From the IMG/VR virus record IMGVR_UViG_3300033182_000162, positions 1 to 44,118 of that record: a stretch of DNA of 44,118 bases, one strand, 5' to 3'. Shown piece by piece: positions 573 to 16,975 of this stretch. Position numbers and translations under genes: made by a program. The notes under the pieces were generated by a model, which worked only from the letters and a program-made list of their open reading frames with translations, was not told where the DNA came from and made no database searches. The first letter of the stretch is position 1, and every line of letters begins with the position of its first letter. Origin of the DNA: a virus.

Positions 573-601
573 ACTATAGCATACGCTAACACGTTTGTCA
601 A
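573..601 (-). promoter_or_regulatory. Sigma70-type promoter for the leftmost glycosyltransferase
   Basis: On the minus strand TTGACA (601-596) is followed by a 17-base spacer, a TG one base before the -10 (581-580, extended -10) and TATAGT (578-573). The -35 overlaps the stop codon of the dehydrogenase gene. The predicted +1 falls at 565-567, on the ATG at 566, so the transcript would be leaderless or nearly so. Motif and spacing are direct observations; activity is inferred. Confidence 0.62.
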
Positions 602-1827
602 CCTCTCATGTATCGTGTGTTGCCGTAATGTATTACAGTACTTGCTTGGGATACAAACTTACGCCAAGGGTCAACTACAATACTACCTGCGGGTATTGTA
701 CAATACAACTCGTCCTTGCTAGTTTTACCAGTATACTCGTATGTAATCTCAGCAGAATGTGCTAACAAGAATACACCTGGGTTCTTAGGCTGATAGTCAT
801 CGCCTGTGTACGGATCTATGTATGTAACACTATGTCCTGCTTCTTCAACATAGTGTCCGATTAACAAACTGTAACTTCCATCTAAATACGGAACCTTTGG
901 CTTGTATGCCTTACCATGAATGTATATTAGCATGTTGTGTTCGCTTGCTTGTTTTACTAGCTCATTTGCTAGGTTCTTTGCTTGTTTCTCACGAGCATTC
1001 ATAATAGCATCAAACAAGTCATAACCTAGATCTAAATCTTCCGCTAGATAACGTAATGCAATGTTATCACGTGGATGACACGCACCGCCGTCGCCCATAC
1101 CGGCAGTCATGTACTGTTTACCCATGATACGCATCGTACTTTCTGCAAGTGCTTTAGTAACAACATCAACGTTAATGTTACCTTGTCGCTCTGCTACGTC
1201 TTGTATCATATTAACCAAACTAATCTTAGTTGAAATGAATGTGTTATAGAAGACCTTAATACATTCACACTCATCCCAGGTGCCAATAACATAACGTGGA
1301 TCGTTTTCCATTACGCTCTTATAAAATTCTACAAGTTGGTGTGCATCGCCTGTTTCAGTGCCATCTTCAGTACCAATCATTACCATCTCTGGATTTACCA
1401 TGTCCCATGCTACACTGCCCATAGCAATAAGATATGGGTTATAAACAAATCGTGTGTTAGTCACTAACTGTACAAACTGTTGACGAGTTGTTCCTGGAAG
1501 AACTGTTGAGATAAGAACAAGCAACTGATCCTTTGTCATATGCTCGTTTGCTTCTGCTAGTACATTCTTAACAATGTCATATGAAAAATCTTTGTTTGGT
1601 AAATGTGCAGTAGGTGCGTTACCGTCATACAATGGATCGTGTGGTGTAGGAACTGCAATAAACACAATGTCCTTACCTAAAACAACATCTTTAATAGTGT
1701 CTACGATTCCAATATGATCGCTGCTTACTTCTGCAACGTCATATCCTTCTACACTGTGACCTTTTTGTGCCATTGCTTCAGCACAAGGCATGCCAAGTTT
1801 TCCTACGCCAATAAACCCTACTTTCAT
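598..1827 (-). CDS. UDP-glucose/GDP-mannose dehydrogenase family protein
   Basis: A 409-aa protein of normal family length (about 390-450). It opens with the NAD-binding glycine motif GFIGVGKLG (residues 4-12). The central domain has K191 and N195 in IKVFYNTF, matching the family's K.....N pattern. The catalytic cysteine is C250 in GGACHPRD, which aligns with the GGSCFPKD of characterised UDP-glucose dehydrogenases. The C-terminal domain has GKAYKP (305-310), the usual GLAYKP-type motif. Family members oxidise a nucleotide-sugar C6 alcohol to a uronic acid using two NAD+. The substrate (UDP-Glc, UDP-GlcNAc/ManNAc or GDP-Man) cannot be assigned. The start ATG directly abuts the previous stop codon, with GGAG a few bases upstream. 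It supplies the clearest sugar-precursor step of the cluster. Confidence 0.88.
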   Translation of the reverse strand: MKVGFIGVGKLGMPCAEAMAQKGHSVEGYDVAEVSSDHIGIVDTIKDVVLGKDIVFIAVPTPHDPLYDGNAPTAHLPNKDFSYDIVKNVLAEANEHMTKDQLLVLISTVLPGTTRQQFVQLVTNTRFVYNPYLIAMGSVAWDMVNPEMVMIGTEDGTETGDAHQLVEFYKSVMENDPRYVIGTWDECECIKVFYNTFISTKISLVNMIQDVAERQGNINVDVVTKALAESTMRIMGKQYMTAGMGDGGACHPRDNIALRYLAEDLDLGYDLFDAIMNAREKQAKNLANELVKQASEHNMLIYIHGKAYKPKVPYLDGSYSLLIGHYVEEAGHSVTYIDPYTGDDYQPKNPGVFLLAHSAEITYEYTGKTSKDELYCTIPAGSIVVDPWRKFVSQASTVIHYGNTRYMRG

Positions 1828-2763
1828 TTAAAACTCCATATTATGTATCTTTAGTCTATTTTTTAAGGCAACTTCTTTAAAAAGTTTTTTATTTTCTATT
1901 AATCTAGGTTGTAAACTTTGAAGAAGTCCTTTTAAATCTTTTTCTTTAGATAAATCAAGTATTACTTGTGTTATCCATTTTATTCTATCAGTATACCATA
2001 TACCTCGATATCCTGTTCCAAATAAATCGTCAAATGTGTCTATGCCCCAATCATGTAACACATTATAAATGTTATCATCTCCAAGTATTACAAATGGTCT
2101 CATTCCAAGGATTGGTTTAAAAACTTTCTCGCTAAGGAATACATTAGTATGTATCGTAGTTTCCGTAACCACATTAAGAAAGTGAGAGTTCCAGTTATGC
2201 GGATGACCTAAACTGGTAATATCGTTGGTGATACCTAAATCGCCTGCTATTGCGTTATCGCCTTCTATATTGCTAATATCTGTGTCTAGTGTTACAGGAG
2301 GTGTTGTTCCTAGACTAACATAACCTTGTGATGTTAAACTACCCAAGATCTCTACAAGCTCTATACGATGTCTATGTGGTTTTCTATTAAGACACATAAA
2401 TGGAGTTGTTATGTTAGTACTATCTATAGCAAATGATTGATACTTATCCAAATGTTCGTATACAAAATCTAACCAGAAACTAAAGTAATGTTCTCCGTAG
2501 GTGTTACCAATATATATAGGATCATATTGTTTTAGAAAATCATTTTGCTCTTTTCTACAAATAGTATTTTCCCAATCAGGACCACTATAACAAATAACAC
2601 GTTTAGGGTTTTTATCTAATAAACTTTTAAGTTCATCTGTAATCTCTAACCAAGTAGTATTAATAAACAAATCGTCTACATCTAGTTGCGACTGTATGAT
2701 ACCTTTTATCTTAGCATCGTGATCGCCTATGATATTATTATTAAATCCCTTATCATAGATCAC
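1828..2763 (-). CDS. GT10-like glycosyltransferase (paralogue 1)
   Basis: Probably 311 aa from a GTG at 2763 that overlaps the preceding stop by 11 bases and has a GGAGAG ribosome-binding sequence just upstream. The in-frame ATG at 2790 would add nine residues, lacks a well-placed Shine-Dalgarno and overlaps the upstream gene by 38 bases. A central motif (FMCLN..P..HR) is followed by VVTETT (about 198-203), FLSEK..KP (about 208-215), PF.ILG and TFDDLFG. The same order occurs in the genes at 2753..4042 and 4842..5846. The VTET/SEK pair resembles the ENS...TEK signature of the nucleotide-binding half of alpha-1,3-fucosyltransferases (GT10), which suggests a GT-B transferase. That assignment is a motif-level inference; donor and acceptor are unknown. 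It is cotranscribed with the dehydrogenase. Confidence 0.55.
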   Translation of the reverse strand: MIYDKGFNNNIIGDHDAKIKGIIQSQLDVDDLFINTTWLEITDELKSLLDKNPKRVICYSGPDWENTICRKEQNDFLKQYDPIYIGNTYGEHYFSFWLDFVYEHLDKYQSFAIDSTNITTPFMCLNRKPHRHRIELVEILGSLTSQGYVSLGTTPPVTLDTDISNIEGDNAIAGDLGITNDITSLGHPHNWNSHFLNVVTETTIHTNVFLSEKVFKPILGMRPFVILGDDNIYNVLHDWGIDTFDDLFGTGYRGIWYTDRIKWITQVILDLSKEKDLKGLLQSLQPRLIENKKLFKEVALKNRLKIHNMEF

Positions 2764-4042
2764 GGTAGCTCTCCAACCAGTTAAACACATCTACCCAGTG
2801 TTGTTTTCCTTTGCGTTCAAAAAAGTTATTTCTGTTATGGATAAGTTTATCTCTAATCTCATTAGAAAAATATATATCCTTATTAAAGTTTTCTATAGAG
2901 TTTAAAATAATCTGCGAGCGTTTTTTAACATCAGTTTCCTTGTCATAACTCTCATCAAATAGTTCAGGAAATGTTGCGTATCCATTTTCTTTTAAATACT
3001 CTAGCGTGTTAATCTGACTTGCTGTAATAAATGGATGGTAGTTTACTATTGGCTGATATGTCTTTTCGGTAATAAACAGCACATCTTCATCGCCTGATTC
3101 TTCGTATGTCGTTTCTGTAACAAAACTAAAATAACTATCCAAGTAATGATTATTAATCAGCACTCTCTGATTTAACCAATCTCCTATTTGGTCGCCGTCG
3201 TAGTCTAGTATATACGGAGCACCTGATAAAAACTCTTGCATGCTTTGAAACAACTCGTTAGAATCTTCACCGTATTTTTGTAATGGAGATCTATCCATTG
3301 AAGGTTTAAAATATCTGTTTAGCCAACTGTAGTACGATTGTTCTAACTGTTTTCTTTTATGCAGTTCAGCGGCAAAAAATATCCGCTGCGGGCGTGGATT
3401 GGCGTTTTTAAAAATAAACTTTTTACTTCTTTCTTTTCCCCAATGATTTAAAAAATCATTTTCTGTAATCAAGTTGATATCGTCCATAGACATTAATGAT
3501 ATTTCTTTATTGTATGTAGTTTCAAAAGAATCCATTCCATAAACATTAATATTAGACAATCCTTTTTTCTTTCTATAATATTCATAGTTTTGTTTAATAT
3601 TTAAATCACCAAACACTAAAAATACCTTATTCTCAGGTATGTTAAAATCTTTAATACAAAAATCAATAATATCAATAAACCTTGGCATGTCTAACGAAAA
3701 TCCTTCGTTAGGAAACCACAATAATAGTTTTAGTTTACTTTTAGGATTACGTAATAACTTTCTAACAGGCTTGTTAATAAAGTTAAACACATTACGATAA
3801 ACAAATGCTTGATCAATCCAATCTATTTCTATATGGTAAAAAGCGTGTTCACCTTGGTATTCTTCTGCGCTAACTTGCTTATACGGCAAGTCTAAATAAT
3901 CACACATTTCAGAAATAAACTTAGGCTTTACGCTTTTAAATACATTTCTCTTATACGACTCATAGTTTCTAAAAGATCGTGGAATAGAGTTTGGGATCCA
4001 CTTAGTTCTATCTTGCCCACTTTGATGGTAGAGTGTTATCAT
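2753..4042 (-). CDS. GT10-like glycosyltransferase (paralogue 2)
   Basis: A 429-aa protein, the largest of three related proteins here. The N-terminal half (about residues 1-210) has no recognisable motif. The C-terminal half has FVTETT (307-312), FITEKTYQP (322-330), a HPF segment, then TFPELFDESYD, ending in a helical tail. These line up with paralogues 1 and 3. FITEK resembles the (V/I)TEK block of GT10 fucosyltransferases, with VTET where ENS usually lies. It has no signal peptide or membrane segment, so it should act in the cytoplasm on a soluble or membrane-linked acceptor. The start overlaps the SGNH gene upstream by ATGA, indicating translational coupling. The coding sequence is noticeably AT-rich, like the other two paralogues. 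Glycosyltransferase function is inferred from motif and context. Confidence 0.52.
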   Translation of the reverse strand: MITLYHQSGQDRTKWIPNSIPRSFRNYESYKRNVFKSVKPKFISEMCDYLDLPYKQVSAEEYQGEHAFYHIEIDWIDQAFVYRNVFNFINKPVRKLLRNPKSKLKLLLWFPNEGFSLDMPRFIDIIDFCIKDFNIPENKVFLVFGDLNIKQNYEYYRKKKGLSNINVYGMDSFETTYNKEISLMSMDDINLITENDFLNHWGKERSKKFIFKNANPRPQRIFFAAELHKRKQLEQSYYSWLNRYFKPSMDRSPLQKYGEDSNELFQSMQEFLSGAPYILDYDGDQIGDWLNQRVLINNHYLDSYFSFVTETTYEESGDEDVLFITEKTYQPIVNYHPFITASQINTLEYLKENGYATFPELFDESYDKETDVKKRSQIILNSIENFNKDIYFSNEIRDKLIHNRNNFFERKGKQHWVDVFNWLESYRDL

Positions 4043-4851
4043 TTATATTCCTCTGAAAACTTCTTTAACCAAAAGTTATTTACAAAATCTTCATGCGCTT
4101 CGTAGCTAGGGTGATTGTCATAACCATCGTCCCAAGTATCTAAGTTGTCTAAGGTATATTCTCTTAATCCGCCATCTGTGTTATCAGTAAACATAAACTT
4201 GTCCCAATCTATTGCATCTTGTATTGTTTTAAACTGGGGAGCACAATATGTTTTATATTCGTTAATATATCTCCTAAAGGTAGTAAATCGATATTTCCAT
4301 CCTTTAAGTTTGCATAAGTTTTGAACATTTAAAATACTCATTAGTGTACTATGCCAATGTAGGTTAGTTGTACTAAAATACATTTGAAACTTCTCAAATG
4401 CTGTAACATATTCTTTGTCTATGCTTTTATTATAACTCCATTGTGTTTTACTAGATACATTTCCGCCGTTAAGTATCCACCAGTTAGCCTCATTTTTATC
4501 GTGCTCACCATATAAACTTTCAATAGCATATAATCCAGGATTCATATCTGAGTTATTACGTTTATTGTTTTCAAATAAGTCTTTAAAATATGGTGTTTCG
4601 TTAGATGTGAGAGGAAACTCTATACGACTAGGTGCGCTCCACATAACGTCAACACTTGGCAAGAACCCTTCTGCTTCTGCTTTCAATGCACAATCTATTA
4701 CAGCAGTGCTAATAAATACATTACCTGCGCCGCTCTTTGCAACATTACGACAGTTACGATCATTTAATACATTCCGGCAGATTACCCTTGCCCAACTGTT
4801 GGGCATATCTGTAAAACTACATCCTCCAAATATATGAAACTTCACAGCCAA
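4039..4851 (-). CDS. SGNH/GDSL-type hydrolase-like protein A
   Basis: A 270-aa protein with the block pattern of the SGNH superfamily. GGCSFT (9-14) holds the likely nucleophile serine S12, GAGN (41-44) lies where block II/III glycine and asparagine are expected, and DNHPSYEAH (245-253) near the C-terminus offers the Asp-His pair. SGNH enzymes are esterases, or acyl- or acetyl-transferases acting on carbohydrates and lipids. In a glycosyltransferase cluster, adding or removing an O-acetyl or other acyl group on a sugar is a natural guess. There is no signal peptide, arguing against a secreted depolymerase. It overlaps the gene before it by 10 bases and the gene after it by 4. Fold assignment is moderately sure; the reaction is unknown. 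Confidence 0.6.
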   Translation of the reverse strand: MAVKFHIFGGCSFTDMPNSWARVICRNVLNDRNCRNVAKSGAGNVFISTAVIDCALKAEAEGFLPSVDVMWSAPSRIEFPLTSNETPYFKDLFENNKRNNSDMNPGLYAIESLYGEHDKNEANWWILNGGNVSSKTQWSYNKSIDKEYVTAFEKFQMYFSTTNLHWHSTLMSILNVQNLCKLKGWKYRFTTFRRYINEYKTYCAPQFKTIQDAIDWDKFMFTDNTDGGLREYTLDNLDTWDDGYDNHPSYEAHEDFVNNFWLKKFSEEYK

Positions 4852-5846
4852 CTTTCTATTTCCTCGTTTGATATGCGCATATTGAGATATTTTTGCTGAT
4901 TAGCGGTTAACCTTTCTTGGAACTTATTCTTATCTAGTGTAGGAAGTACTATTAAAAATTCTTTTAAACTTCTTATTGCTCTATTAAATCGTATTTGATC
5001 TGTATTATAAAGATCATATGAGTGATCTATTACATCGTCGAACATATCAAATCCTAAATCTCTAAAAAACTGTACTATTCCCGGAGTACCAATCCATATA
5101 GCAAAATGACAGTTAGCAATAGGCTTATAACTTTTTTCTGTAATAAACAGTTTTCTTTTAGATTCACCGTATGTTTCTGTTACCAAACTAACAGAACTCT
5201 GACTGTAGATCCATCGTTCGTGACTCCTATCATCTTCGTGTATCTGTTCATTTGATCTATCTAAAGTTAGTATTATTTTATCTTTTACTAAGTTACTAAC
5301 AAAACTAATATCTCCTTTATAAAGTTGTTTAAACTTATCATAATGAGATATATTTTCTATAGAGTCATAGCGATTTAATAAACTAATCAACCCTTTATCA
5401 AATATCTTTACATCGTGCAGCTTCTGTAAGGTATAGTATCTATGCCAGGCCCTATTGCCATTCAGGCATAAAAACTTACTTATAAAAGGATTATTATTAT
5501 TAAGAGTTATCTTATAATCCTTTATACGATTAAGATAATCATAAGCCCAGTAGTTAAAAAATGTACCTTTTGTTTTTGCCAGTTCAGGGTTACAATGTAA
5601 TACAGTTCCATATTTAGAAAAATGATCAATATCAATCCATTGTTCGTCACCTTCAGAATGAAATATTACCAACGGAATATTTTTATCATATTCTGGAACT
5701 CCATTTCCGTCATAATGTTCTAGTATCTGAAACGTTCCTTGCCAATCACTATAGTTAGCAAGAATTGATTTCATACGGTCTCCAGGACAAATATCCATTC
5801 CTGTGCCAGTGACACGTATAAGGTTAATATCTTTTCTCATTCCCAT
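4842..5846 (-). CDS. GT10-like glycosyltransferase (paralogue 3)
   Basis: Up to 334 aa; a second ATG two codons in (5840) is equally plausible and neither has a strong Shine-Dalgarno. The central FLCLNGNR..HR motif (about 125-136) matches the CLN..P..HR motif of paralogue 1. LVTET (221-225) and FITEKSYKP (234-242) are followed by a W.GTPG segment and MFDDVIDHSYD. This is the same domain as in the genes at 1828..2763 and 2753..4042, so the cluster carries three diverged copies. The GT-B/GT10-like reading rests on the TEK block and on context. A sampled 60-base stretch of this gene has only about 22% G+C, lower than the radical SAM genes to the right. It overlaps the radical SAM gene upstream by 10 bases. 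Confidence 0.52.
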   Translation of the reverse strand: MGMRKDINLIRVTGTGMDICPGDRMKSILANYSDWQGTFQILEHYDGNGVPEYDKNIPLVIFHSEGDEQWIDIDHFSKYGTVLHCNPELAKTKGTFFNYWAYDYLNRIKDYKITLNNNNPFISKFLCLNGNRAWHRYYTLQKLHDVKIFDKGLISLLNRYDSIENISHYDKFKQLYKGDISFVSNLVKDKIILTLDRSNEQIHEDDRSHERWIYSQSSVSLVTETYGESKRKLFITEKSYKPIANCHFAIWIGTPGIVQFFRDLGFDMFDDVIDHSYDLYNTDQIRFNRAIRSLKEFLIVLPTLDKNKFQERLTANQQKYLNMRISNEEIESWL

Positions 5847-6679
5847 ATCGATACACTTTCATACCCAAACTGAGTACCGTTAGTATTACAGTTCTTACAA
5901 GCTGGTAACTGTTTTCGATTTCCTTTGCGTAATATTTCCCTAACATCACTAAACTGTTTGCTCATCCATATACTGCTAAAAGTGTCTTTATGTATGTTGC
6001 CAAAACTTTCTTGTGCTCTTGCCCAATCGTTGCAGCACAAACCTACATCACCGTTCCAATCTACAAACGCTTTATAATGAGGCAACCAACACGGACGAAA
6101 CACAGTTTCTGCTTTTTGTATCAGACCACCTCTATTATTATAGTTGTATAGTTCAATAAGTGTTTCCTCACCAGTATCATGATGGTCACGTATCCTATAA
6201 TACAGTTCACACTTTTCTAATAACTTATAAGTTTTCTCTATTTGATCACTACCGTCATAGCAGTCGACTATAAGTGTTTTAAGTCCTGAATTTTTTAACT
6301 GTTCGCATGTTAGTTTATTAGATAATAATCTATCACCATTAGTGATCATTTCGACATTAAAATGTTTAGAAAATACTTTTATGATTTCAAGTATCTCTGG
6401 ATTTAACGTAGGCTCTCCGTATCCTGTAATATGAATATCTCCGTTAAAATCTGCATCTGCTAGTTGTGTCGCTAGTAGCTGGGCAGTTTCAACTGACATA
6501 TTAAGATTTCTATTTGGGTATATTTCTGGGTTGCTACGAGGACAAAAACTACATACACGATTACATAGTTCTGTAGGATTTATTTCTACAAATGCCAGTC
6601 CAAGTAGTTTAGGATTATTAATGCTTACACTAGCATATCTATCATTCCTATACTTTATATGATTTTCAACATTAAACAT
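5837..6679 (-). CDS. Radical SAM protein with C-terminal SPASM/twitch cysteines
   Basis: A 280-aa protein. The CX3CX2C cluster motif (C39, C43, C46 in ELCNRVCSFC) binds the SAM-coordinating [4Fe-4S] cluster, and GYGEPTLNP is the GGEP-equivalent SAM-contact motif. The C-terminal part has further cysteines in the usual SPASM-like order: a CW..H pair, GDVGLCCNDW, GN.....F..IW and finally CKNC. This is the standard radical-SAM-then-auxiliary-cluster layout, unlike the other four radical SAM genes here, whose cysteine-rich module comes first. Family members carry out radical chemistry on peptides or sugars; the substrate here is unknown. It overlaps the ParB-like gene upstream by 8 bases and the transferase gene downstream by 10. 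Soluble, with no targeting signal. Confidence 0.82.
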   Translation of the reverse strand: MFNVENHIKYRNDRYASVSINNPKLLGLAFVEINPTELCNRVCSFCPRSNPEIYPNRNLNMSVETAQLLATQLADADFNGDIHITGYGEPTLNPEILEIIKVFSKHFNVEMITNGDRLLSNKLTCEQLKNSGLKTLIVDCYDGSDQIEKTYKLLEKCELYYRIRDHHDTGEETLIELYNYNNRGGLIQKAETVFRPCWLPHYKAFVDWNGDVGLCCNDWARAQESFGNIHKDTFSSIWMSKQFSDVREILRKGNRKQLPACKNCNTNGTQFGYESVSIWE

Positions 6680-7643
6680 TAAAATAATGATCAGGTATAT
6701 TGATCATTTCTCCTTTGTTAAAGACTTTTATTTTTCCATCGGTGCTTGTTAACGAATGCTCGCTATCCAGTAAGAAAAATAGTTCAAAAATATCTCTATT
6801 AAAAGGTTTATCTAAATAAACTGCTACTTTATCCTTAGGAACTTCTGCTTCGCTTTCAACTAAATGTGTTATAAGCTGAAACTCTTTTTTATTAAATCCT
6901 TTATAAAAGTTCTTACCTAATATATCTGATTTAATAGTATCAAGATCTACATTGTTTGTATAATATACTTGTAATGGTAAACTTTCAAATACCATAGAAT
7001 TCCATTTTTTAAATCTATCATTCTCAGGCCATGCATCTTTACCTAAAAACTCATATGTAAAATCAGTAAACCTTTCTTCTTCAAAAGGCATGTTATCTAC
7101 AAATAGTCTTTCATTACATTCGGTTCTAAATAAAATAGGGTTCGGACTGTTAAGTTCCTTGCGTAAGTCGTCCTCGTTAGTTATTTCTCTAGCAGTACCC
7201 TTTAGTTCGTTATATAGTTTTTGTTTTTTATGAACACTTAACATTATAGGTAGAGTTTTACATCCTAAATATTCAGCTGCTATACATCTATTAGTGCCAG
7301 GATGCACTATCCAGCTACCATTATCCATATGATTTACTGCTTTAACAGAATTCTTCCACCCATTACGAAGGTAGCTTTGTATTAACCACAGAACTTTTTC
7401 AAAGTGATGATGCACTTGATTCTCACCGTTCATTGGTATCGTAAGAACTTTTGCTGAAAAATCTGTTGTAACGCATTTGGCTAGTTCTTTTTCCGTAGAC
7501 CTATTTTGTTTTGCCCACTTGTCTATTAGATCTTCACGTATATCTACGTAATACCGAAGTTTTTCCATTGGTGCATCAACCATAAACACTGTATGGTTCT
7601 CAAACCAATCACTGTCAAAGAAGTCTTGTCCTGCTGTGCTCAT
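6672..7643 (-). CDS. ParB-like domain protein of unknown role
   Basis: A 323-aa protein. The segment SWIVHPGTNRCIAAEYLG (110-127) followed by LPIML resembles the core of the ParB/sulfiredoxin-like nuclease fold, in which a (D/H)G.HR motif precedes an alanine-rich helix and an LG..xIPV strand. The usual HR pair appears as NR (118-119), so nucleotide binding or hydrolysis is not assured. Residues after about 140 match nothing I recognise. In this setting it is unlikely to be a chromosome-partition protein. ParB-like folds also occur as ATP/CTP-dependent kinases and modification enzymes, so a small-molecule or sugar kinase role is possible but unproven. It sits between two radical SAM genes with ATGA-type overlaps and must be cotranslated with them. 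Confidence 0.5.
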   Translation of the reverse strand: MSTAGQDFFDSDWFENHTVFMVDAPMEKLRYYVDIREDLIDKWAKQNRSTEKELAKCVTTDFSAKVLTIPMNGENQVHHHFEKVLWLIQSYLRNGWKNSVKAVNHMDNGSWIVHPGTNRCIAAEYLGCKTLPIMLSVHKKQKLYNELKGTAREITNEDDLRKELNSPNPILFRTECNERLFVDNMPFEEERFTDFTYEFLGKDAWPENDRFKKWNSMVFESLPLQVYYTNNVDLDTIKSDILGKNFYKGFNKKEFQLITHLVESEAEVPKDKVAVYLDKPFNRDIFELFFLLDSEHSLTSTDGKIKVFNKGEMINIPDHYFNV

Positions 7644-8767: not shown

Positions 8768-9456
8768 AGGCTACCTTCTATCATAGGTAGAATATATTCT
8801 TCTGCTACTCGTTTGTGACCTGCATTGTTGATGTGAAATCCTTTATCTACATAATAGCCATCACCTAAAAATTCTACCACACTATCCTGACGTATATCTA
8901 CTGGATCTAATGTTTGAGAAAATTCTTTGTACCAATGCAACCAAGGAAAAAATACAATACGGTCTTTTAGATAACTTTTTAATAACTGTAGTTGCATAGA
9001 AATTTTTTCTTGTTTTAAATTTCCGTATACAACATTTTCGTTAAAATATTTTATTGCTGTGCTTTTTTCACTAGGTTTTTCAAGTGCTTCTAAATACCCA
9101 GAAACAGTAATATGTTCTATCGTATTGTCTCCAATGCCGTACAATCTAACATGTTTGCCTTCTTGCTTATAAATTTTTTGTTCTTTACCGTTATGGTACT
9201 TTCCGTTAAGAAAGTTTTGTTTCCCATCGCTACTAAATGTCATTCTGTCAAGTGTTGTTAGTTGGAACAACACTAAGGAAGGATTATATTCCTTAACCAA
9301 TCTATAAGCACTCCATATTGCATATTCAATGTCTGTACCCGGTGCACCTGCATTTATAACCGGTTTGTTCAGCAAGTTCTGTAGGTGCGCAGAATAAGTT
9401 TCATTAGCATTTACGCCAGTTCCGTAAGTCCAACTACAACCTACACTTAATATCAT
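8764..9456 (-). CDS. SGNH/GDSL-type hydrolase-like protein B
   Basis: A 230-aa protein, close to the minimal SGNH domain size. Block I is GCSWTYGTG (6-14) with likely nucleophile S8; block II is INAGAPG (34-40); a LVLFQLTTLDR segment corresponds to the central strand; and DKGFHINNAGH (204-214) supplies the C-terminal Asp/His. The blocks fit better here than in the 270-aa protein at 4039..4851, to which it is only distantly similar. Substrates of the superfamily include O-acetyl sugars, lipids and thioesters. With no signal peptide it should act inside the infected cell. It lies between two N-terminal-twitch radical SAM genes with 4-base overlaps on both sides, which suggests their products act on the same molecule. 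Confidence 0.68.
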   Translation of the reverse strand: MILSVGCSWTYGTGVNANETYSAHLQNLLNKPVINAGAPGTDIEYAIWSAYRLVKEYNPSLVLFQLTTLDRMTFSSDGKQNFLNGKYHNGKEQKIYKQEGKHVRLYGIGDNTIEHITVSGYLEALEKPSEKSTAIKYFNENVVYGNLKQEKISMQLQLLKSYLKDRIVFFPWLHWYKEFSQTLDPVDIRQDSVVEFLGDGYYVDKGFHINNAGHKRVAEEYILPMIEGSL

Positions 9457-10640
9457 TTCATTAACTCTGCAAGTTCTGGAACAATATCTACAAATTTCTC
9501 GTTTCGTATATTATCAATAGTTCCCATTTTAAGTTTAAAGTTAGGTATTAAATCTGTTCGGTCTTCTGCATTCATATAACTAACTAAACTAGCAAACTGG
9601 TTGGCTACTTTTTTATAACCGTTATTAAACAACTCTTGAGCATAATCTGTGTACTGTTTAGTTAATACATCTTTATGATGCTGCGGCAATACTTGTAATC
9701 TTAATGATTCAGGGTGTTGTATTAAATTTACATGAAAATCATTTGGATGTTCAATCATTCCTGTATCTACAGCATGCTTATGAAAATCAACAATATGATA
9801 ACTATTCATTACTCCTATAGTACAGTTTATAAAAAATCTTGCGTTTGGCGCTCTGTCTTTCATTTGTTTACGATTTTCTACAATATCAGACCATATTGTT
9901 CCTTTACGAATGTACTCTGCTAGTTCTCCGTAAGCATCTAAAGAAGCACCCATTTCAACCTGCTTAAATAGAGGCCACACATCAAGCACATCAAGTTTCT
10001 TATATCGAAGTTGGCTAAAGTTGCTATTATATCTAATAACAACATCTGTTTTTTCCATTTCGACTAGTTTATTAAGAATCTTGTAATGTTCTTCCATAAT
10101 AAGTGGTTCGCCACCTGCAAAATAAATATCTTCAACGGTGTCAAACAATGGTTGTATTTGCTCCCATAGATTTACTTTATTATTTGGAACATCGTCAGGA
10201 AGACTTCCAAATATCTGTTTAGTTTCTTCATACCACCCTGTACTCAGCTGGGGGCCGCACATTCTACATCTCATATTACAAATATTTGAAAATCTAAAAT
10301 CCCAATACTTGATGCTGAAGTCATCTAAACTTCCATCTTTATTTGTGCTATCAACAAGTGGCATATGCCGCTCAAATGTTCTATTTAAATGATTGCGCAA
10401 ACTGCTCTGTCCATGATCCTCTTGTTCAAAGCATCTTGCGCAAGTCTCAGGCCTACGTCCTTGTATCATGTCAAAACGAAGTGCTTTCATTTTATCGTTG
10501 TTCCATACTTCTTCTAATGTATTTTCATTTAAACTTCCAACACTATCTTCCATTGCTGTTAAGCAGCATGGATATACATTATTGTTTGGCCATGTGTGTA
10601 AATGTATCCATGGAGCTATACATACAGTTTTATCAGTCAT
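9453..10640 (-). CDS. Twitch-domain radical SAM protein (N-terminal twitch) 2
   Basis: A 395-aa protein with the same layout as the gene at 7640..8767. The N-terminal twitch-like module has C7 in CIAPWIHL, C25-C26 in VYPCCL, TLEEVWNND and C67/C70 in CARC. The radical SAM core has C121, C125 and C128 (CNMRCRMC) and an AGGEPL SAM-contact motif near residue 175. The conserved C-terminal tail reads IRNEKFVDIVPELAEL. It is a paralogue of that gene, but the two are too different to be a recent duplicate. The start has AGGA four bases upstream and overlaps the preceding stop by eight bases. Function beyond radical SAM chemistry is unknown. Confidence 0.86.
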   Translation of the reverse strand: MTDKTVCIAPWIHLHTWPNNNVYPCCLTAMEDSVGSLNENTLEEVWNNDKMKALRFDMIQGRRPETCARCFEQEDHGQSSLRNHLNRTFERHMPLVDSTNKDGSLDDFSIKYWDFRFSNICNMRCRMCGPQLSTGWYEETKQIFGSLPDDVPNNKVNLWEQIQPLFDTVEDIYFAGGEPLIMEEHYKILNKLVEMEKTDVVIRYNSNFSQLRYKKLDVLDVWPLFKQVEMGASLDAYGELAEYIRKGTIWSDIVENRKQMKDRAPNARFFINCTIGVMNSYHIVDFHKHAVDTGMIEHPNDFHVNLIQHPESLRLQVLPQHHKDVLTKQYTDYAQELFNNGYKKVANQFASLVSYMNAEDRTDLIPNFKLKMGTIDNIRNEKFVDIVPELAELMK

Positions 10641-12081
10641 AAGTTCCTAATGCCTCGTCTATATTTTTAGGATCCGGTTCAAGCACCCATCCTTCTGCTT
10701 CTGCTAGTTCTTGTATTTCCTTGTCTGTATCCGGTATGCTCTCTACCCAATCTGTAAGTATGCTAGGAAACACACTTAAACTTTTATTGCGTCTTTCATC
10801 GTACTGCTTATAAAATGTTTTAAAGTCACGCCATAACGTAATAGGATTGCTTGTACGTCTGTGTGGGGCATCTACGGTTACAAGATAATCTAACAATCGC
10901 TCAATACTTGCTTTTTCAAACTCACTCCAGCCAATGTCATTCTTATGATGATCCCACCACCAATCTAAATCATCGTGTAAGTAATCTTTAATATGTGTAG
11001 GTAATGCTAGTGGACTTTGGAAACTAGGAAAGCGTAGCAAGTTTAAACTTACTGACGGTGTGCGACTTTGTGTAAGCTCTTTTAGTTTGTATACTTCATC
11101 TAAGAAGTCTGTGATACTAAACAAACACAAACTATTAATCGTCATCATAATGTGTACGCCTTTGTAGTTTGCTTCTGTAAGAATACGCTTAATATTCTTT
11201 AGCCATACTTCATAATCTAATCCATCACGAATATATTCTGCGTGTGCGCCCGTTGCTTCACAACTTGTATACAACTCAAAGTGTTTTATGCTTTTCGACT
11301 TTTCTATTAACTTGTCAACAATCTCATCTTTAGCAATAAGATTTGTGTTGATAGCAAAACGCATATCGCTGTCTTGTGATTCAAACCAATCAAATAGTTT
11401 CCAAGTGTTAGCACTCATTAGAGGTTCGCCGCCTGTAATACGCAGTTCTTCTAAACTTTCACTAAGTCCATTATCCCACCATTTCCAAAATGCTTGTATG
11501 TAAGGATTGTCTTCATCATCTTTGTAAGGCTGTGTCCAAGAGCCGTCTTGTCTAAATGCGCCTGCGCCGTCACTTACAAGATTTTCATAGTATCCATTCT
11601 TCTTGATATCTTTAGCCCATGTTGTACTGAAACTAGCATTACAATATGAACACGCTAAGTTACAAGTGCGATCAAATGCTATCTCAAATGTTTTTAGGTT
11701 TACACTTTCATTGTGATCCATTTCGTAAGCACGTTGTAGTTCTTCGTCAGAGTAGATAATGCTTTTAAATGTTCTGTCACTTACAGCATCTTTACCCATG
11801 TCTTCCATCTTCCAACAATACTCACACTCGCATGGACGTTCGCCGCACTTCATTTGGCGGCGCATTTCTTTTTTATGTTTGGTATTGTGTATTGCTGTAA
11901 AGTCTACTTCTACTTCTTCAACAGGGATTTTGTGAGCAGGAGGGTGATGGCAACTAGCAGTAGTGCCGCTGCCTAACCATGTAGTAGCGTTATACCACTT
12001 TGCTCCGCAGAAACTTTTACTTTTAGTGTCAAGTACTCTATCTCTATATTGCTGAAGTGTTTCGTCTGGCTTTTTAGGCAT
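10633..12081 (-). CDS. Radical SAM protein with CHHP-type N-terminal module 1
   Basis: A 482-aa protein. The radical SAM core has C140, C144 and C147 (CNLACSYC), and TGGEPLMS follows at about residue 215. The N-terminal 105 residues form a Cys/His-rich module, F-C25-GAKW, S-C44-HHPPAHKIP and C84/C86/C89 in CECEYCW, where the other family members have a CC pair and CxxC. This replaces CC with CHHP, so any auxiliary cluster or metal site may use histidine. The C-terminus keeps the RN....FP motif. It is a close relative of the next gene (12074..13444), sharing both the unusual module and an insert carrying DNPY..AFW. The start has GAGGA upstream and overlaps the preceding stop by 8 bases. Confidence 0.83.
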   Translation of the reverse strand: MPKKPDETLQQYRDRVLDTKSKSFCGAKWYNATTWLGSGTTASCHHPPAHKIPVEEVEVDFTAIHNTKHKKEMRRQMKCGERPCECEYCWKMEDMGKDAVSDRTFKSIIYSDEELQRAYEMDHNESVNLKTFEIAFDRTCNLACSYCNASFSTTWAKDIKKNGYYENLVSDGAGAFRQDGSWTQPYKDDEDNPYIQAFWKWWDNGLSESLEELRITGGEPLMSANTWKLFDWFESQDSDMRFAINTNLIAKDEIVDKLIEKSKSIKHFELYTSCEATGAHAEYIRDGLDYEVWLKNIKRILTEANYKGVHIMMTINSLCLFSITDFLDEVYKLKELTQSRTPSVSLNLLRFPSFQSPLALPTHIKDYLHDDLDWWWDHHKNDIGWSEFEKASIERLLDYLVTVDAPHRRTSNPITLWRDFKTFYKQYDERRNKSLSVFPSILTDWVESIPDTDKEIQELAEAEGWVLEPDPKNIDEALGTYD

Positions 12082-13444
12082 TCCAATCCTCTAACAAATC
12101 TCTATACTCTGGGAACGTATCCGCAAAGTTTTTGTTACGTCTTTTATTGTACTCTAATATGTATCGTACAAAGTCGGCCCTGTGTTCAGTTGCTGGCTTT
12201 TCTGTGCGTAAATAATCACAAAAACGTTTTATTTGATCCCATTCTTCCAAATAAAGTCTAGCATACTTTTCTTTGCGGTAATACTTTAACCATGACTCAC
12301 ATGTTGTTTCTATTACCTCAGCAAACACATTTCGCATGTCTTTATTTAATAGTGTACATTGTAAGTGCGGTGGCCAACGCAAGTAGTTAACGCTAAGTGG
12401 AATACGATTACGCTCAAATGTTGTATTGTAGTCTTTGCGTAGTCTCATTACAAGTTCTACAAACTCTACAAAACTAGGTAAACTTAATATGTTTATCGTT
12501 GTCATAATAGCAACGGTCGAATCTGTATCTTCTAGTATTTTGCGTACATTGGCTATCCATTGTTTATAGTCTAAGCCATCACGAGCATATTCTGCGTCTG
12601 ATCCTGTACTTTCTAAACTTGTATAAACATCAACACGAATGCCTACTTCTTGTAGTTGATTTATTTTTTGTATTAACTTGTTAACAAGTTTTTCTTCAAC
12701 ACACGCATTTGTATTAATAGCAACTTGTATTGGCTTTGGATTTTCTATTAGATAATCTAGCAAACGCCAAGTGTCTTTGCTCATAGTAGGCTCGCCGCCT
12801 GTAATACGTAACACTTCTAAATGTTGTAACGCTTCTGGAAACCATTGCCAAAATGCTGTTACATAAGGATTATCATCACTATGCTTATAGGGCATTTTGC
12901 CTGAAGTAGTCAAATAATCTAAATCGTGCGAGCCATGTCTAGTAGGATAGCGTCCGTTACTTTTTATATCCTCCATCCACTTTGAACTAATCTCAGGTGA
13001 ACAATAAGCACACGCAAAGTTACACGCATTTGAAAAGGATACTTCTAAATAACTAGGATAAACATTTTCACCCGGGTCGCTTTCTGCTATTTCTTCAAAT
13101 CGAGACCAAGCCCAAGTATCTGCTGTTTTATAATGTCTATCTGAAAAATAGTCTTTACCTAAATCTTCAATATTCCAACAATAGTCGCATTCACTAGGAC
13201 GCTTGCCTGTAAGCATTTTAAGACGCTGCTCTTTTTTGTATTGGCTATTATGTAGAGCGGCAGGATCCTTTTCTATTTCTTCTAAAGGAATCTTGTGCGG
13301 AGCAGGATGGTGACAACTATGATTGTATCCGTTTTGTAAGTATAACGTAGTCTGTAACCATTTAGCTGTACAGAACGAGCAACTTACAGCGTTAATCTTT
13401 TCACGCTTTTCTTCTAGTATGCGAATACGTTCTTCGTTGCTCAT
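12074..13444 (-). CDS. Radical SAM protein with CHHP-type N-terminal module 2
   Basis: A 456-aa protein, paralogous to the 482-aa gene that follows it. The N-terminal module has C22 and C25 (SCSFCTAKW), C44-H45-H46 in SCHHPAPHKIP, ALHN, and C86/C89 in ECDYCW. The radical SAM core has C141, C145 and C148 (CNFACAYC), then ITGGEPTMS near residue 212. The tail YNKRRNKNFADTFPEY matches the family's RN..F...FPE ending. It starts at an ATGA overlap with the GT-A-like transferase gene, and its own end overlaps the 482-aa gene by 8 bases. The two related copies side by side suggest either a heterodimer or two sequential reactions on similar substrates; this is inference. No targeting signal. Confidence 0.83.
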   Translation of the reverse strand: MSNEERIRILEEKREKINAVSCSFCTAKWLQTTLYLQNGYNHSCHHPAPHKIPLEEIEKDPAALHNSQYKKEQRLKMLTGKRPSECDYCWNIEDLGKDYFSDRHYKTADTWAWSRFEEIAESDPGENVYPSYLEVSFSNACNFACAYCSPEISSKWMEDIKSNGRYPTRHGSHDLDYLTTSGKMPYKHSDDNPYVTAFWQWFPEALQHLEVLRITGGEPTMSKDTWRLLDYLIENPKPIQVAINTNACVEEKLVNKLIQKINQLQEVGIRVDVYTSLESTGSDAEYARDGLDYKQWIANVRKILEDTDSTVAIMTTINILSLPSFVEFVELVMRLRKDYNTTFERNRIPLSVNYLRWPPHLQCTLLNKDMRNVFAEVIETTCESWLKYYRKEKYARLYLEEWDQIKRFCDYLRTEKPATEHRADFVRYILEYNKRRNKNFADTFPEYRDLLEDWNA

Positions 13445-14334
13445 TTGCGCTTTCTTATTACTCTTGGTGTATTATGATACAATGCCTTAAAGAAATGACT
13501 ACCATTAGCATCAAGTTCTGCTATTTCAATACCTAGCTCTGATCTAAGTTTATCACCTAAATCTTCAACTTCTTCTAACAAGTTTTCTTCAGTGATGTCT
13601 AATGATTCCCAATGTGAGTTTAACCATTTAAAATCACGCACTTCAGCATGGTTCCAGTCTGTACACATTGTTTTATATAAACCTTGTCTTGCGCCTAAAA
13701 CACTCCACAAGCCGTTTTCAACGTCAGCACCTACTGAACACCATACACGCAGTCTATCAAAGTTCTGCCACCATGTTTTGCGTAGGTCCTCTACTTTGGT
13801 ACCTTGGTCTAAACACATTTTAACGCCTTCACGGAAGCCTGCTCTCCAAGCCTGCCACGGTGTTGCGTTTGTAAAGCTCTCTGAGTAGTTTTCGTTAAAC
13901 TGATAATACTTGTCATCAAAGCAAAACTCTACTTGTCCTTTGTCGTCACCGTCTTCACTTGCTTCGTGTGTTTTCATGTTGCGCACAAACTTTCTTGTCC
14001 ACAACTTCAGTCCGCCGTTGCCGTACATTAAGCCATTAACGTGTACTTTGCCGCACCAACTAAAAACGTGTTCAGGTGTTAAGCCTAGTTCGTCTAAGTC
14101 TATTTCAACGTTAAGAAAGTTTGGATCTATAATATTGTCAGCATCAACGGTTACAAAGTATTCCGTTTCGCTCATTTCAGCACACATTTTATGAGCAGCA
14201 TCACTTCCATCTACTCCGTGTACACGTTTTGCCCACGGTACTTTTTGACATAAGTCTGCGTAGTTCTTTTCTGCGTTTGGCTCATCGTAGCTCAAGAAAA
14301 TAATATCTTGGTCTACTACTCTAATCTTACTCAT
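13441..14334 (-). CDS. GT-A-like glycosyltransferase
   Basis: I place the start at ATG 14334 (MSKIRVVDQD, 297 aa): AGAGGA lies four bases upstream and ATGAGTAA overlaps the preceding stop, the arrangement used elsewhere in this operon. An upstream ATG at 14382 would add 16 residues and overlap the previous gene by 56 bases. The VDADN motif (63-67) after an N-terminal Rossmann-like segment indicates a GT-A fold with a metal-binding DxD. MYGNGGLKLW and WQAWRAGFREG are shared with the truncated gene at 1..566, its paralogue. No signal peptide or membrane helix. It probably transfers a sugar from a nucleotide donor; donor and acceptor unknown. Confidence 0.7.
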   Translation of the reverse strand: MSKIRVVDQDIIFLSYDEPNAEKNYADLCQKVPWAKRVHGVDGSDAAHKMCAEMSETEYFVTVDADNIIDPNFLNVEIDLDELGLTPEHVFSWCGKVHVNGLMYGNGGLKLWTRKFVRNMKTHEASEDGDDKGQVEFCFDDKYYQFNENYSESFTNATPWQAWRAGFREGVKMCLDQGTKVEDLRKTWWQNFDRLRVWCSVGADVENGLWSVLGARQGLYKTMCTDWNHAEVRDFKWLNSHWESLDITEENLLEEVEDLGDKLRSELGIEIAELDANGSHFFKALYHNTPRVIRKRK

Positions 14335-14899
14335 AAATCCTCTTATATTGATAAGTGTCGAAACGTCTTGATGTATAAACACTTATAGGTTGATTTGTTG
14401 ATTCAAATGGCATATCAAACGGTGCTATAAAATAGTTATCGCTAACTAGACGCCCAAAGTCAACAAACAGAGTTTTATACAAAATATTAGGATCACCTTT
14501 TTCTGTGATGCTAAACATTATATTTGTGTTTAAACTCACTCCTTTAGAACGTAGATTATTTTTTAGTTCCTTACCTATTTCTATACGCCAGCAACTATTC
14601 GGTATGTCTTGTGTTATTATAATATCAGCATCATTCCCTTGCTCAGGTATTTCATATATGAAATCATTTATAGAATACGCATCTAACACATATTCAAATT
14701 TTGACGCAAACTCTAATGTTTTTGTTTTAGGATTATACTGAACCATATAGTTACTAGTAGGTTCATTACCATCAAGTATACTAATCACTTCTGAAATAGG
14801 TACCATAACATGGTCACGATTTTCGTCTGGAGAATTACTTACGCCCGTAACACGCCCGCTATCTCTCTCAAAAAATACATACATCATTTGTTCAGACAT
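14327..14899 (-). CDS. Unknown protein sharing a motif pair with the 117-aa protein
   Basis: A 190-aa soluble protein that I do not recognise as a named family. It shares two spaced motifs with the 117-aa protein encoded at 16581..16934: SNYMV followed by a short charged stretch (49-53 onward, versus 12-16 there) and EQGNDADI (86-93, versus EQGNDEDI 57-64). The C-terminal half looks beta-rich. It overlaps the GT8-like gene upstream by 16 bases, with AAGGAAA ahead of its ATG, and the transferase gene downstream by 8. Together with the 117-aa gene it brackets the two GT8-like genes, so a shared accessory role is plausible. No catalytic motif is visible. Confidence 0.62.
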   Translation of the reverse strand: MSEQMMYVFFERDSGRVTGVSNSPDENRDHVMVPISEVISILDGNEPTSNYMVQYNPKTKTLEFASKFEYVLDAYSINDFIYEIPEQGNDADIIITQDIPNSCWRIEIGKELKNNLRSKGVSLNTNIMFSITEKGDPNILYKTLFVDFGRLVSDNYFIAPFDMPFESTNQPISVYTSRRFDTYQYKRIYE

Positions 14900-15714
14900 T
14901 GTTCGTGTTTCCTTATTATTTCATTGGTTACAAAACTATTTTCAGTATAGTGGAATACAGTATTCTGCAAATGATTACCTATCTTTAACTTTAGATCATC
15001 TGTTAAATAAACTCCTACACGATCTTGCCAGTCTGTTGCGGTTTCTTGCCAACTTTGTATTGCTGGTTTCATGTGTACTATGTTAGGCATGTCTTGTCTA
15101 GCATTTGTTATTTCTGTATCTATGTCCATAATCTTCGCAGAAATCGCACAAGTTACATCCATGCTTGCTGTTTTAGGAAAATACTCTTTACAAAAATGTC
15201 CGTAAAATAGTTCCCAGTTGTTGTTAATAAGTTCTACCCATGTATAGTATTCTTTACATTTGTCGCATTTTTTGAAGTAATGTAAAGTATTATATACATT
15301 TGGCAGGTTATTTGCTGCGAACGCTTTACGGTAATAGTTTGATGTTACTAGTTCTTGTCTATATGTAAACACTCTTGTTGGATAAAACAAGTTGTAGTTA
15401 GAAACAAAACGCCAAAAATAGTCTAAGTTATGTAACACTAACACATCAGCATCTAGTACAATAGTTTCATCGTAAGGCGTTGCGTGGTATATCTTCCATC
15501 TATGCTCTGTTTGAAAACGACTGTCTGACTTTTCGTACCACGGAATATCAATAATACTATCAAACACCCATTTGTATTCATCTGGCACACTGTCACAAGT
15601 AAGAATACTAACAGGATATTCATTACCACTAGCACGTAAGCTCATAGCACACAGATATGCTTGTTTTACATACTCTGCTCCTTCGGCAAATATAACAAAT
15701 CCTTTACTGCTCAT
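14884..15714 (-). CDS. GT8-like glycosyltransferase (copy 2)
   Basis: A 276-aa protein. The N-terminus (SKGFVIFAEG...YVKQAYLCAMSL) has the form of a nucleotide-sugar-binding strand and helix. TPYDETIVLDADVLV (79-93) contains the DxD pair D88/D90 in the context typical of glycogenin-like GT8 transferases, and IVHMKP near residue 215 resembles the C-terminal H.....K metal/phosphate region of that group. It is a paralogue of the adjacent gene at 15704..16588, which has the same YDETI(V/L)(L/I)D(A/T)DV block. A CDKCKEYY segment in the middle could form a small metal site, though that is speculative. It overlaps the neighbours by 11 and 16 bases. Transferase assignment is reasonably sure; substrate unknown. 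Confidence 0.68.
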   Translation of the reverse strand: MSSKGFVIFAEGAEYVKQAYLCAMSLRASGNEYPVSILTCDSVPDEYKWVFDSIIDIPWYEKSDSRFQTEHRWKIYHATPYDETIVLDADVLVLHNLDYFWRFVSNYNLFYPTRVFTYRQELVTSNYYRKAFAANNLPNVYNTLHYFKKCDKCKEYYTWVELINNNWELFYGHFCKEYFPKTASMDVTCAISAKIMDIDTEITNARQDMPNIVHMKPAIQSWQETATDWQDRVGVYLTDDLKLKIGNHLQNTVFHYTENSFVTNEIIRKHEQCLNK

Positions 15715-16588
15715 CTATACACCTGTTTAAACTAAACTTATTCATAACGTGTAAGTTAATATCTTTTACACGCACAGGAGTATATTCTCCTTTATGTTTT
15801 TCTTTTTCGAGCAATAGTAACATTCTCGTGTTATCTAGTTTCCATAATATACTTCTGTCAGTAGTATGATAAAGTTTGCCTGGCATTATTTTAGCAAAGT
15901 CACCTTCAGTGTATCCGTTCATAACATGTATAGCAATACTAAAACTATAATCATTACGATAAAAAGGAGTATTAACTTGGAATACTCTATCATAATGCTT
16001 CCAGTTTTCTTGTATGTGTTGTAATAAATCAAAGAAAATTTTATTAGTTTTTGTCTTTCTAAAAAACACTACAGTTGCCCAGTAAAACTTTACTGAAGTA
16101 TCTGAAATACGCTTAAACTGTTCGCCTCTATCAATGTCAGTTAAATCAGTACTATCATCGTAGATCAAAAAATCATGTTCTTGTTCAAAACAATATTTGT
16201 ATACATCATTTGATATGATAACATCTGTATCTATTAGTATCGTTTCATCGTAAGGAGAAAGCTCATAAGCAAGTGTGCGTGTTTCATTTTTAAACTGTAG
16301 TTTTTTTTCTATAAGGGTTCCATCGTGGTATGTACGAACACCATGTTGTTCTGTTTTAGATAATGTTGTATTTTCTGCGAGTTGATCTTCTCGCCACACT
16401 ATTGATATTATCTTATCAAACACATCCTTTGCGTCAGGGTATTCTGCCAAAAGAAACTCTGTACTATCAGTTACAATAGTAGTTGGTAAATCCAAATATT
16501 GTTTTGCTCTCTTTGCTAGAAATAATGCTTGTTTACAATAATCAATCTGGGCGTTATTGCGAGCAAAAACTAATACGCCTTTACTCAT
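15704..16588 (-). CDS. GT8-like glycosyltransferase (copy 1)
   Basis: A 294-aa protein, the second gene of the sigma70-promoted operon. KGVLVFARN at the start and SPYDETILIDTDVIIS (111-126) with DxD residues D120 and D122 mark a GT-A, GT8-like fold; the block is nearly the same in the following gene. VMNGYTEGDF and KLYHTTDRS in the C-terminal third occupy the region where GT8 enzymes keep metal-binding histidines. The start overlaps the 117-aa gene by 8 bases in an ATGAGTAA arrangement, with GGTAGA just upstream. It probably transfers a hexose-type sugar; donor and acceptor cannot be read. Confidence 0.66.
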   Translation of the reverse strand: MSKGVLVFARNNAQIDYCKQALFLAKRAKQYLDLPTTIVTDSTEFLLAEYPDAKDVFDKIISIVWREDQLAENTTLSKTEQHGVRTYHDGTLIEKKLQFKNETRTLAYELSPYDETILIDTDVIISNDVYKYCFEQEHDFLIYDDSTDLTDIDRGEQFKRISDTSVKFYWATVVFFRKTKTNKIFFDLLQHIQENWKHYDRVFQVNTPFYRNDYSFSIAIHVMNGYTEGDFAKIMPGKLYHTTDRSILWKLDNTRMLLLLEKEKHKGEYTPVRVKDINLHVMNKFSLNRCIDEQ

Positions 16589-16934
16589 ATTCTACCAGTT
16601 TCTCCACACTTCTATTTTTACGCAGTTTTTCATACTCTGCGTGGTACTCATTTGCTGCTGTAAAATATGTGTTAAGTATTTCTGCTTGGAAATCTGTTAG
16701 ATCCTTTACCATGATAGGCGTTTCATTGTCGTCAACAAGTACAATATCTTCGTCATTGCCTTGCTCAACAAGCATACTAACAAATGTAATAAGCTCTTTT
16801 GTTACTGTAAACTGCCCGCCTTGATAATAATAAACAGTTTGCTCACGGTAACGCTCTTTAAGAACACGCTTTTGGTTGTTTAGCGTGACCATGTAGTTTG
16901 AAAAGTCTAATGCTTTTTGTAATCGTTCATCCAT
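16581..16934 (-). CDS. Small protein of unknown function, first gene of the modification operon
   Basis: A 117-aa acidic, mostly helical protein that I cannot assign to a function. The N-terminus (DFSNYMVTLNNQKRVLKERY) looks like an amphipathic helix, EQGNDEDIVLVDD lies at 57-69, and the C-terminal 40 residues are helical and charged. The SNYMV and EQGND motifs recur in the 190-aa protein at 14327..14899. The start ATG at 16934 is fixed by AGGGG six bases upstream. That Shine-Dalgarno lies in the 3' arm of a terminator-like hairpin, and the predicted promoter start at 16951 leaves a leader of about 17 bases. No transmembrane segment or catalytic motif. A chaperone or accessory role for the adjacent transferases is only a guess. 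Confidence 0.68.
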   Translation of the reverse strand: MDERLQKALDFSNYMVTLNNQKRVLKERYREQTVYYYQGGQFTVTKELITFVSMLVEQGNDEDIVLVDDNETPIMVKDLTDFQAEILNTYFTAANEYHAEYEKLRKNRSVEKLVEYE

Positions 16935-16975
16935 AAAAAACCCCTAATCTATACTTTATTATATAGTATTAGGGG
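16935..16975 (-). terminator. Rho-independent terminator of the structural module
   Basis: On the minus strand CCCCTAAT-A-CTATA (16975-16962) pairs with TATAG-ATTAGGGG (16953-16941) around an 8-base loop, with a single bulged A, followed at once by six T residues (16940-16935). It lies 15 bases after the stop codon of the 336-aa gene. There is no T-tract on the other strand, so termination should act only leftward. Its 3' arm also carries the Shine-Dalgarno of the next gene. Confidence 0.78.

Follow-up and report, generated by a model that had tools for sequence, protein, structure and literature searches.

A tail-linked operon of radical SAM enzymes and glycosyltransferases in uncultivated T4-related jumbo phages, and its possible role in host-surface glycan remodelling

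The window analysed here covers 44,118 bases of IMG/VR virus record IMGVR_UViG_3300033182_000162, and in it 17 minus-strand open reading frames (ORFs), g1 to g17, run from position 16934 to 598 directly behind tail genes and bring together radical S-adenosylmethionine (SAM) enzymes, glycosyltransferases and a nucleotide-sugar dehydrogenase. We see about an even chance that this module is a tail-linked, early-expressed glycan pathway of widespread uncultivated aquatic phages, in which permuted-twitch radical SAM enzymes remake the sugars of either a host glycolipid or a tail protein. The particular form of it that we tentatively favour, at a little below an even chance, is remodelling of host-surface glycans by a phage-encoded pathway in the cytoplasm. 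Judged by its genes (a 5,141-amino-acid ORF, a baseplate-wedge protein 33–34% identical to those of jumbo phages such as Salicola SCTP-2 and Agrobacterium Atu_ph07, and its tail proteins) the window is from a T4-related jumbo-phage lineage, a large uncultivated water-borne phage.

Gene order and promoters

As had been stated in an initial annotation of this DNA, radical SAM and glycosyltransferase genes are interspersed, and together they constitute one apparent transcription unit, every junction from g1 to g17 overlapping by 4–16 bases or abutting (1827/1828) when the likelier internal start codons are taken for g5 and g16. The 'sixteen' genes of that annotation was a miscount, as its own list also adds up to 17. 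Is such an arrangement peculiar to one fragment? Two sets of related loci were compared, one of 64 loci with distinct rS1 (g6) genes, mostly fetched through radical SAM genes and hence biased, and one fetched by the tail gene t2 alone and so not selected on glycan genes. Among distinct loci t1 adjoins g1 in 36/36, g1 adjoins g2 in 42/42, g2 adjoins g3 in 42/42 and g4 adjoins g5 in 30/30, and in the rS1 set rS1 and rS2 (g7) are neighbours in 46 of 51. All 45 t2-selected loci with enough downstream sequence have the order g1-g2-g3-g4-g5 behind the tail genes, a few of them with one or two genes inserted in this core; an rS1-type gene lies within eight genes in 34 of the 45, and some protein with a CxxxCxxC motif in 40. 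Given the fixed adjacencies and the 45/45 recurrence in the t2-selected set, the gene order is not due to chance. The search of other genomes for the same genes in the same order, which the initial annotation had proposed, has thus come out in its favour in many other phages.

As read from these comparisons the module is two-layered, with a fixed core (g1, two GT8-like transferases, g4 and g5) and then variable cassettes led by the conserved rS1 and rS2. Several contigs, L016-L022 among them, have the complete g8–g17 cassette in the same order, as does L080 to the extent of the sequence fetched. Other cassettes hold sugar-tailoring enzymes: epimerases, aminotransferases, methyltransferases and a carbamoyltransferase. 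At least about 600 contigs have t2 and t5 in common, and the core is probably present in hundreds of related phages. Among about 50,000 records of a cultured-phage collection g1, g3, g4, g5 and g15 had no match; the cultured phage PA5oct has the tail genes in the order t5-t4-t2-t1, their products detected in its virion by mass spectrometry (MS), without the module. Relatives with the core order are present in contigs binned as Pelagibacter and other marine metagenome-assembled genomes (MAGs; L114, L117, L118). More generally, MAG contigs assigned to Betaproteobacteria, Verrucomicrobia, Rickettsiales, Pelagibacter and Rhodobacteraceae (L114, L115, L117, L118, L187) are phage with the module, and are probably mis-binned or from infected cells.

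The t1-g1 gap is only 55 bases, and holds both a sigma70 promoter and the intrinsic terminator that overlaps it. Sigma70 boxes with at most one mismatch precede g1 in 57/89 and 19/44 related loci, and near-perfect ones precede g0, the ORF at the window's end, in 12/42, the shuffle control giving 1/800 and 3/600; no such boxes were seen before g2, g3, g4 or rS1 in the related loci scanned. The late motif TATAAATA stands before t1 in 16/56 and 47/137 related loci. By analogy with T4-type biology the module would then be expressed early from its sigma70 promoter, and a search of 13 long related contigs gave no beta subunit of RNA polymerase, which fits use of the host enzyme. By eye, only the window and a handful of its nearest relatives show a clear t1-g1 terminator, so for the group at large we do not claim that the module is fully uncoupled from late readthrough. 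The word TATAAATA is depleted in the window (2 observed, 9.3 expected), as if late-promoter words were avoided outside promoters; one copy, at 234-227, sits inside g0. The initial annotation counted g0 as a seventh glycosyltransferase of the series, at 1..566. The ORF is there, but its glycosyltransferase nature is putative and, as it has its own sigma70-like promoter at 601-573, it is probably a separate unit from g1-g17.

Table 1. Positions in the window of the module's genes, its neighbours and their transcription signals
Feature	Position	Strand	Basis
t1, tail/virion protein (context)	16990..18000	-	PA5oct homologue virion-detected by MS
T4-type late promoter TATAAATA, 30 bp before t1	18030..18037	-	sequence motif
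Operon sigma70 promoter, TTGACA-N17-TATAAT, 12/12	16958..16986	-	sequence; conserved in relatives
Intrinsic terminator, hairpin (15 pairs) + U6, ends tail-gene transcript, overlaps promoter	16935..16976	-	fold -18.4 kcal/mol, z -4.5
g1, conserved 117-aa protein, first gene of module	16581..16934	-	adjoins t1
g2, GT8-like glycosyltransferase	15704..16588	-	joint g2/g3 profile to glycogenin
g3, GT8-like glycosyltransferase	14884..15714	-	PF11051 above cut-off; glycogenin profile match
g4, fast-evolving small protein	14327..14899	-	adjoins g5; alignment
g5, putative glycosyltransferase, likely start 14334	13441..14382	-	invariant DxD-like motif
g6/rS1, N-terminal-twitch radical SAM	12074..13444	-	NF033640 329 bits
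g7/rS2, N-terminal-twitch radical SAM	10633..12081	-	NF033640 297 bits
g8/rS3, N-terminal-twitch radical SAM	9453..10640	-	NF033640 412 bits; SPASM PF13186 N-terminal
g9, SGNH/GDSL-like, candidate O-acyl transferase or esterase	8764..9456	-	PF13472 E 0.001, below cut-off
g10/rS4, N-terminal-twitch radical SAM	7640..8767	-	NF033640 373 bits
g11, ParB-like protein (HPGTNR motif)	6672..7643	-	alignment
g12/rS5, radical SAM with C-terminal SPASM	5837..6679	-	PF04055, PF13186
g13, GT-B (GT10-like) glycosyltransferase family	4842..5846	-	one family with g15/g16
g14, SGNH-like by sequence motif only	4039..4851	-	sequence
g15, GT-B (GT10-like) glycosyltransferase	2753..4042	-	AlphaFold2 model; fold match
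g16, GT-B (GT10-like) glycosyltransferase	1828..2790	-	one family with g13/g15
g17, UDP-glucose (nucleotide-sugar) dehydrogenase	598..1827	-	PF00984/PF03721, phrog_9148 E 1e-99
Second sigma70-like promoter, TTGACA-N17-TATAGT with TG, 11/12, before g0	573..601	-	sequence
g0, g5-related putative glycosyltransferase, cut by window end	3..566	-	DxD-like motif

The enzymes of the module

Five radical SAM proteins had been annotated, and there are five: g6, g7, g8 and g10 exceed by a wide margin the curated cut-off (170 bits) of the twitch domain-containing radical SAM family N_Twi_rSAM (NF033640), and g12, at 35.6 bits not a member, is a radical SAM/SPASM protein. The CxxxCxxC cluster motif is present in all of them, and is intact in 227/227 N-terminal-twitch relatives and 29/29 relatives of the g12 type. 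N_Twi_rSAM genes were found in 13/13 long related contigs, several of which have seven or more matches. rS1 is 56–80% identical in its closest relatives, and in the close clade mean identity is 68% for rS1 and 73% for rS2 compared to 36–53% for tail proteins. The four twitch proteins have a BtrN-like N-terminal domain (profile positions 4–72 align with BtrN 186–256, E 0.0012), so the likeness to BtrN that was noticed at the outset holds for the twitch domain. However, in BtrN that domain is C-terminal to the radical SAM core and in the four proteins of the window it is N-terminal, a permuted order, and consequently they are not BtrN orthologues. An AlphaFold2 model of rS1 (pLDDT, predicted local distance difference test, 92.5) matches SkfB, BlsE, MoaA, anSME and viperin within about 2 Z units, the resemblance to BlsE being in the radical SAM core; this comparison, made with VIA-align, sets apart no sugar-specific radical SAM group and does not separate sugar-type from peptide-type substrates. 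We infer that sugars are the substrate of the module's radical SAM enzymes.

As to the six glycosyltransferase-like proteins annotated in the operon, five fall into two families. A joint profile of g2 and g3 matches the GT8 enzyme glycogenin (E 3.5e-9), and g13, g15 and g16 form one family. A profile of the latter had no match by sequence in the PDB, for which reason a structure was predicted for g15: the AlphaFold2 model (pLDDT 85, predicted template modelling score 0.88) has a GT-B fold, with the alpha1,3-fucosyltransferase FucT (2nzw, GT10) as its best VIA-align match at Z 12.6 and with TarM, the T4 DNA glucosyltransferases AGT and BGT and other GT-B enzymes within about 1 Z of it. The sixth, g5, is putative, its label and that of g0 coming solely from an invariant DxD-like motif that they share; no solved or curated relative was found for their family, and no known fold was linked to it.

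For the remaining genes the sugar dehydrogenase of the initial annotation (g17) was corroborated. The two 'SGNH-like' labels are weak, g9 falling below its family's cut-off and g14 having a motif and no family match, and the 'ParB-like' g11 does have its HPGTNR motif but is without a match among Pfam, PHROG and PDB profiles.

Bacterial N_Twi_rSAM relatives, for which a narrower alignment was used as one of the whole family was too diverse for a genome scan, are mainly in Bdellovibrio-like, Elusimicrobia and Bacteroidota genomes, where their neighbours include GT2 glycosyltransferases (5/144), carbamoyltransferases (3/144) and also GDSL genes. The Elusimicrobia MAG bin-0981 has tandem arrays of up to six such genes on many contigs (L131, L136, L138, L141, L142, L145, L147), and a Bacteriovoracaceae MAG contig (L130:1-21203) has eight N_Twi_rSAM-type genes clustered, g6- and g7-like ones included, with none of the module's glycosyltransferases recognised among them. 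In the cultured Vibrio jumbo phage K566 three N_Twi_rSAM genes are close together (L112, 15974-32286) near a homologue of the lipid A acyltransferase PagP, and no tail gene is annotated in the stretch fetched. The 5,141-amino-acid ORF of the window (24110-39535) lies between the baseplate-wedge gene and the tail genes, and in the matching position PA5oct has a virion protein of about 3,857 amino acids detected by MS.

What is decorated?

The initial annotation named a host surface polysaccharide, a DNA-linked glycan and a virion protein as candidate acceptors, without choosing among them. In the reading that we favour, host RNA polymerase would transcribe the module early from its own sigma70 promoter. 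The products of the core, permanently attached to the tail genes, would act with those of the exchangeable cassette behind it, in which the radical SAM enzymes may alter sugars by hydrogen-atom abstraction (epimerising, oxidising or dehydrating them), and the GT10-like transferases, SGNH proteins and UDP-glucose dehydrogenase would extend and decorate the chain. The acceptor would be a host surface glycan, either the nascent core of lipopolysaccharide (LPS) or a lipid-linked oligosaccharide, at the membrane's inner face, and during infection the receptor that fits the neighbouring tail proteins would thereby be masked. As a precedent, the glycosyltransferases in host-recognition clusters of pelagimyophages were proposed to modify the host O-chain (PMC7029224). 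Several points weigh against this reading. Transmembrane-like hydropathy is present in 0/17 operon proteins and in only 5/1083 cassette ORFs. In the 13 long contigs, which may be partial, no match was found to the three families for lipid-linked surface glycans that were sought, PF00953, PF04138 and PF01943. This means that the pathway would lean on host carriers and export, and the lack of a membrane component limits how a host molecule could be modified. Furthermore, comparison of the modelled rS1 with known folds does not bring out a sugar pocket, and a subset of relatives (L060, L063, L065-L067, L072 and others) has no sigma70 boxes before g1, with a late-like TAAATA motif there instead. 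That the module is always linked to tail genes would be expected just as well if tail proteins were decorated.

Might the phage then be decorating itself? The same cytoplasmic pathway could place an unusual oligosaccharide on the tail-fibre or other tail proteins encoded upstream, thereby changing adsorption or shielding the virion, and this we consider a real, though clearly less than even, possibility. The linkage is invariant both for the core and for t1-g1, PA5oct has the same tail genes without the module and t1-type proteins are components of its virion, and the GT8 profile finds glycogenin, which is a protein glycosyltransferase. From the absence of transmembrane proteins, and of the GtrA, Wzx-type and phosphoglycosyltransferase families from the 13 long contigs, the pathway is probably cytoplasmic, its acceptor being either a soluble protein or a lipid-linked or LPS-core intermediate of the host, and an all-soluble set of enzymes suits a cytoplasmic protein acceptor. 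On the other hand, the module is kept apart from late transcription of the tail genes by its dedicated and conserved early-type promoter, joined in the window by the terminator; no acceptor motif could be established as conserved; and the tail proteins change faster than the best-conserved enzymes. The conservation of rS1 and rS2 is easier to reconcile with a substrate that stays the same, be it a small molecule or a glycan, than with a tail protein that changes. Tail linkage is neutral, fitting host and virion targets alike, and it is the early-type promoter and the slow evolution of rS1 and rS2 that incline us to a host glycan; we regard the host surface as a more likely acceptor than the virion. 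A Pro/Gly loop of t1 came into question as the site of glycan attachment; it varies, however, and with only one module-free comparator we make no claim for it.

Two further explanations have less to commend them. It is unlikely that the SPASM and twitch radical SAM enzymes modify side chains of a phage protein, in the manner of ribosomally synthesised and post-translationally modified peptides or as tail cross-links, with the transferases glycosylating the product. The peptide maturases SkfB, SuiB and anSME are among the closest folds to rS1, and there are SPASM domains in g8, g10 and g12, yet BlsE (nucleoside-sugar) and MoaA (GTP) match rS1 as well, the cassettes hold sugar-tailoring enzymes, and the end-to-end overlap leaves no gap among the 17 ORFs, the stretch covered, for a small precursor gene. 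Slightly less likely still is a role for the operon in producing a diffusible secondary metabolite or in modifying phage DNA. Metabolite synthesis was proposed for carbamoyltransferase-bearing clusters of jumbo cyanophages (PMC7824862), DNA is a frequent target of phage glycosyltransferases, and T4 DNA glucosyltransferases are among the matches of the GT-B fold; however, many other GT-B enzymes are at least as similar, none of the window's genes was recognised as serving hydroxymethyl-base synthesis or hypermodification, and the linkage to tail genes would be left unexplained. DNA is an unlikely candidate for the decorated molecule.

Comparison with known systems

Should the module be an early, tail-linked glycan pathway acting on a host glycolipid or a tail protein, radical carbohydrate chemistry would be in use for phage-host recognition, for which there is no characterised counterpart. 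The gtrABC seroconversion clusters of temperate phages have a GtrA flippase and membrane-bound GtrB and GtrC, whereas the window's operon has no transmembrane ORF and PF04138 is absent from the 13 long relatives; an autonomous lipid-linked polysaccharide pathway would have a phosphoglycosyltransferase and a Wzx-type flippase, and PF00953 and PF01943 had no match in those same contigs, which may be partial. The LPS-type clusters of cyanophages (P-SSM2; Bellamy) are alike in that the Bellamy UDP-glucose dehydrogenase is 62% identical to g17 and is beside carbamoyl-, methyl- and glycosyltransferases, but they have epimerases and a nucleotidyltransferase, no radical SAM gene is annotated in them, and they are not attached to tail genes (PMC7824862).

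Resemblances are also seen in the host-recognition clusters of pelagimyophages, T4-like marine phages with a hypervariable region among the tail genes, GT8-rich glycosyltransferases and radical SAM cassettes. Unlike the pelagimyophages the window is from a jumbo-phage lineage. Their cluster is an island of tail-fibre and glycosyltransferase genes between VrlC and gp14; the window has tail fibres and glycosyltransferases, and the downstream end of its region lies beyond it. In the accessible part of that report (PMC7029224) the radical SAM genes receive a passing remark, and no fixed core order, promoter of its own or N-terminal-twitch family is described. In the T4-related Campylobacter phages CP220 and CPt10 (Firehammervirus, PMC2853527) five radical SAM genes form an interchangeable cluster at a distance of some 10 kb from a tail-fibre gene, and g12 is 26–27% identical to one of their products. 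However, these genes are paired with a glycine amidinotransferase and not with glycosyltransferases, are of other radical SAM types, and are not accompanied by a core fixed to tail genes. The Aeromonas jumbo phage 332-Vera (PMC12390700), compared by its published description, has eight radical SAM genes inside its structural and tail-fibre cluster; it belongs to the Chimalliviridae, and linkage to glycosyltransferases is not reported in the accessible part of its description.

A T4-like marine virus with 12 radical SAM genes was also reported (PMC5332604), and it and the sets in pelagimyophages, CP220/CPt10 and 332-Vera were presented without an established function (PMC7029224, PMC5332604, PMC2853527, PMC12390700), phage radical SAM clusters having been called 'highly unusual' since 2010 (PMC2853527, PMC12390700). 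In the literature searched there is no description of the fixed tail-linked core, of its promoter or of its glycosyltransferase partners. Such clusters now have a defined partner set (GT8 and GT10-like transferases and a UDP-glucose dehydrogenase), a constant place behind tail genes and a sigma70 promoter of their own, across a very abundant uncultivated group. A loose oddity thereby becomes a system in which ideas on new radical sugar enzymes, and on how lytic aquatic phages alter recognition, can be put to the test.

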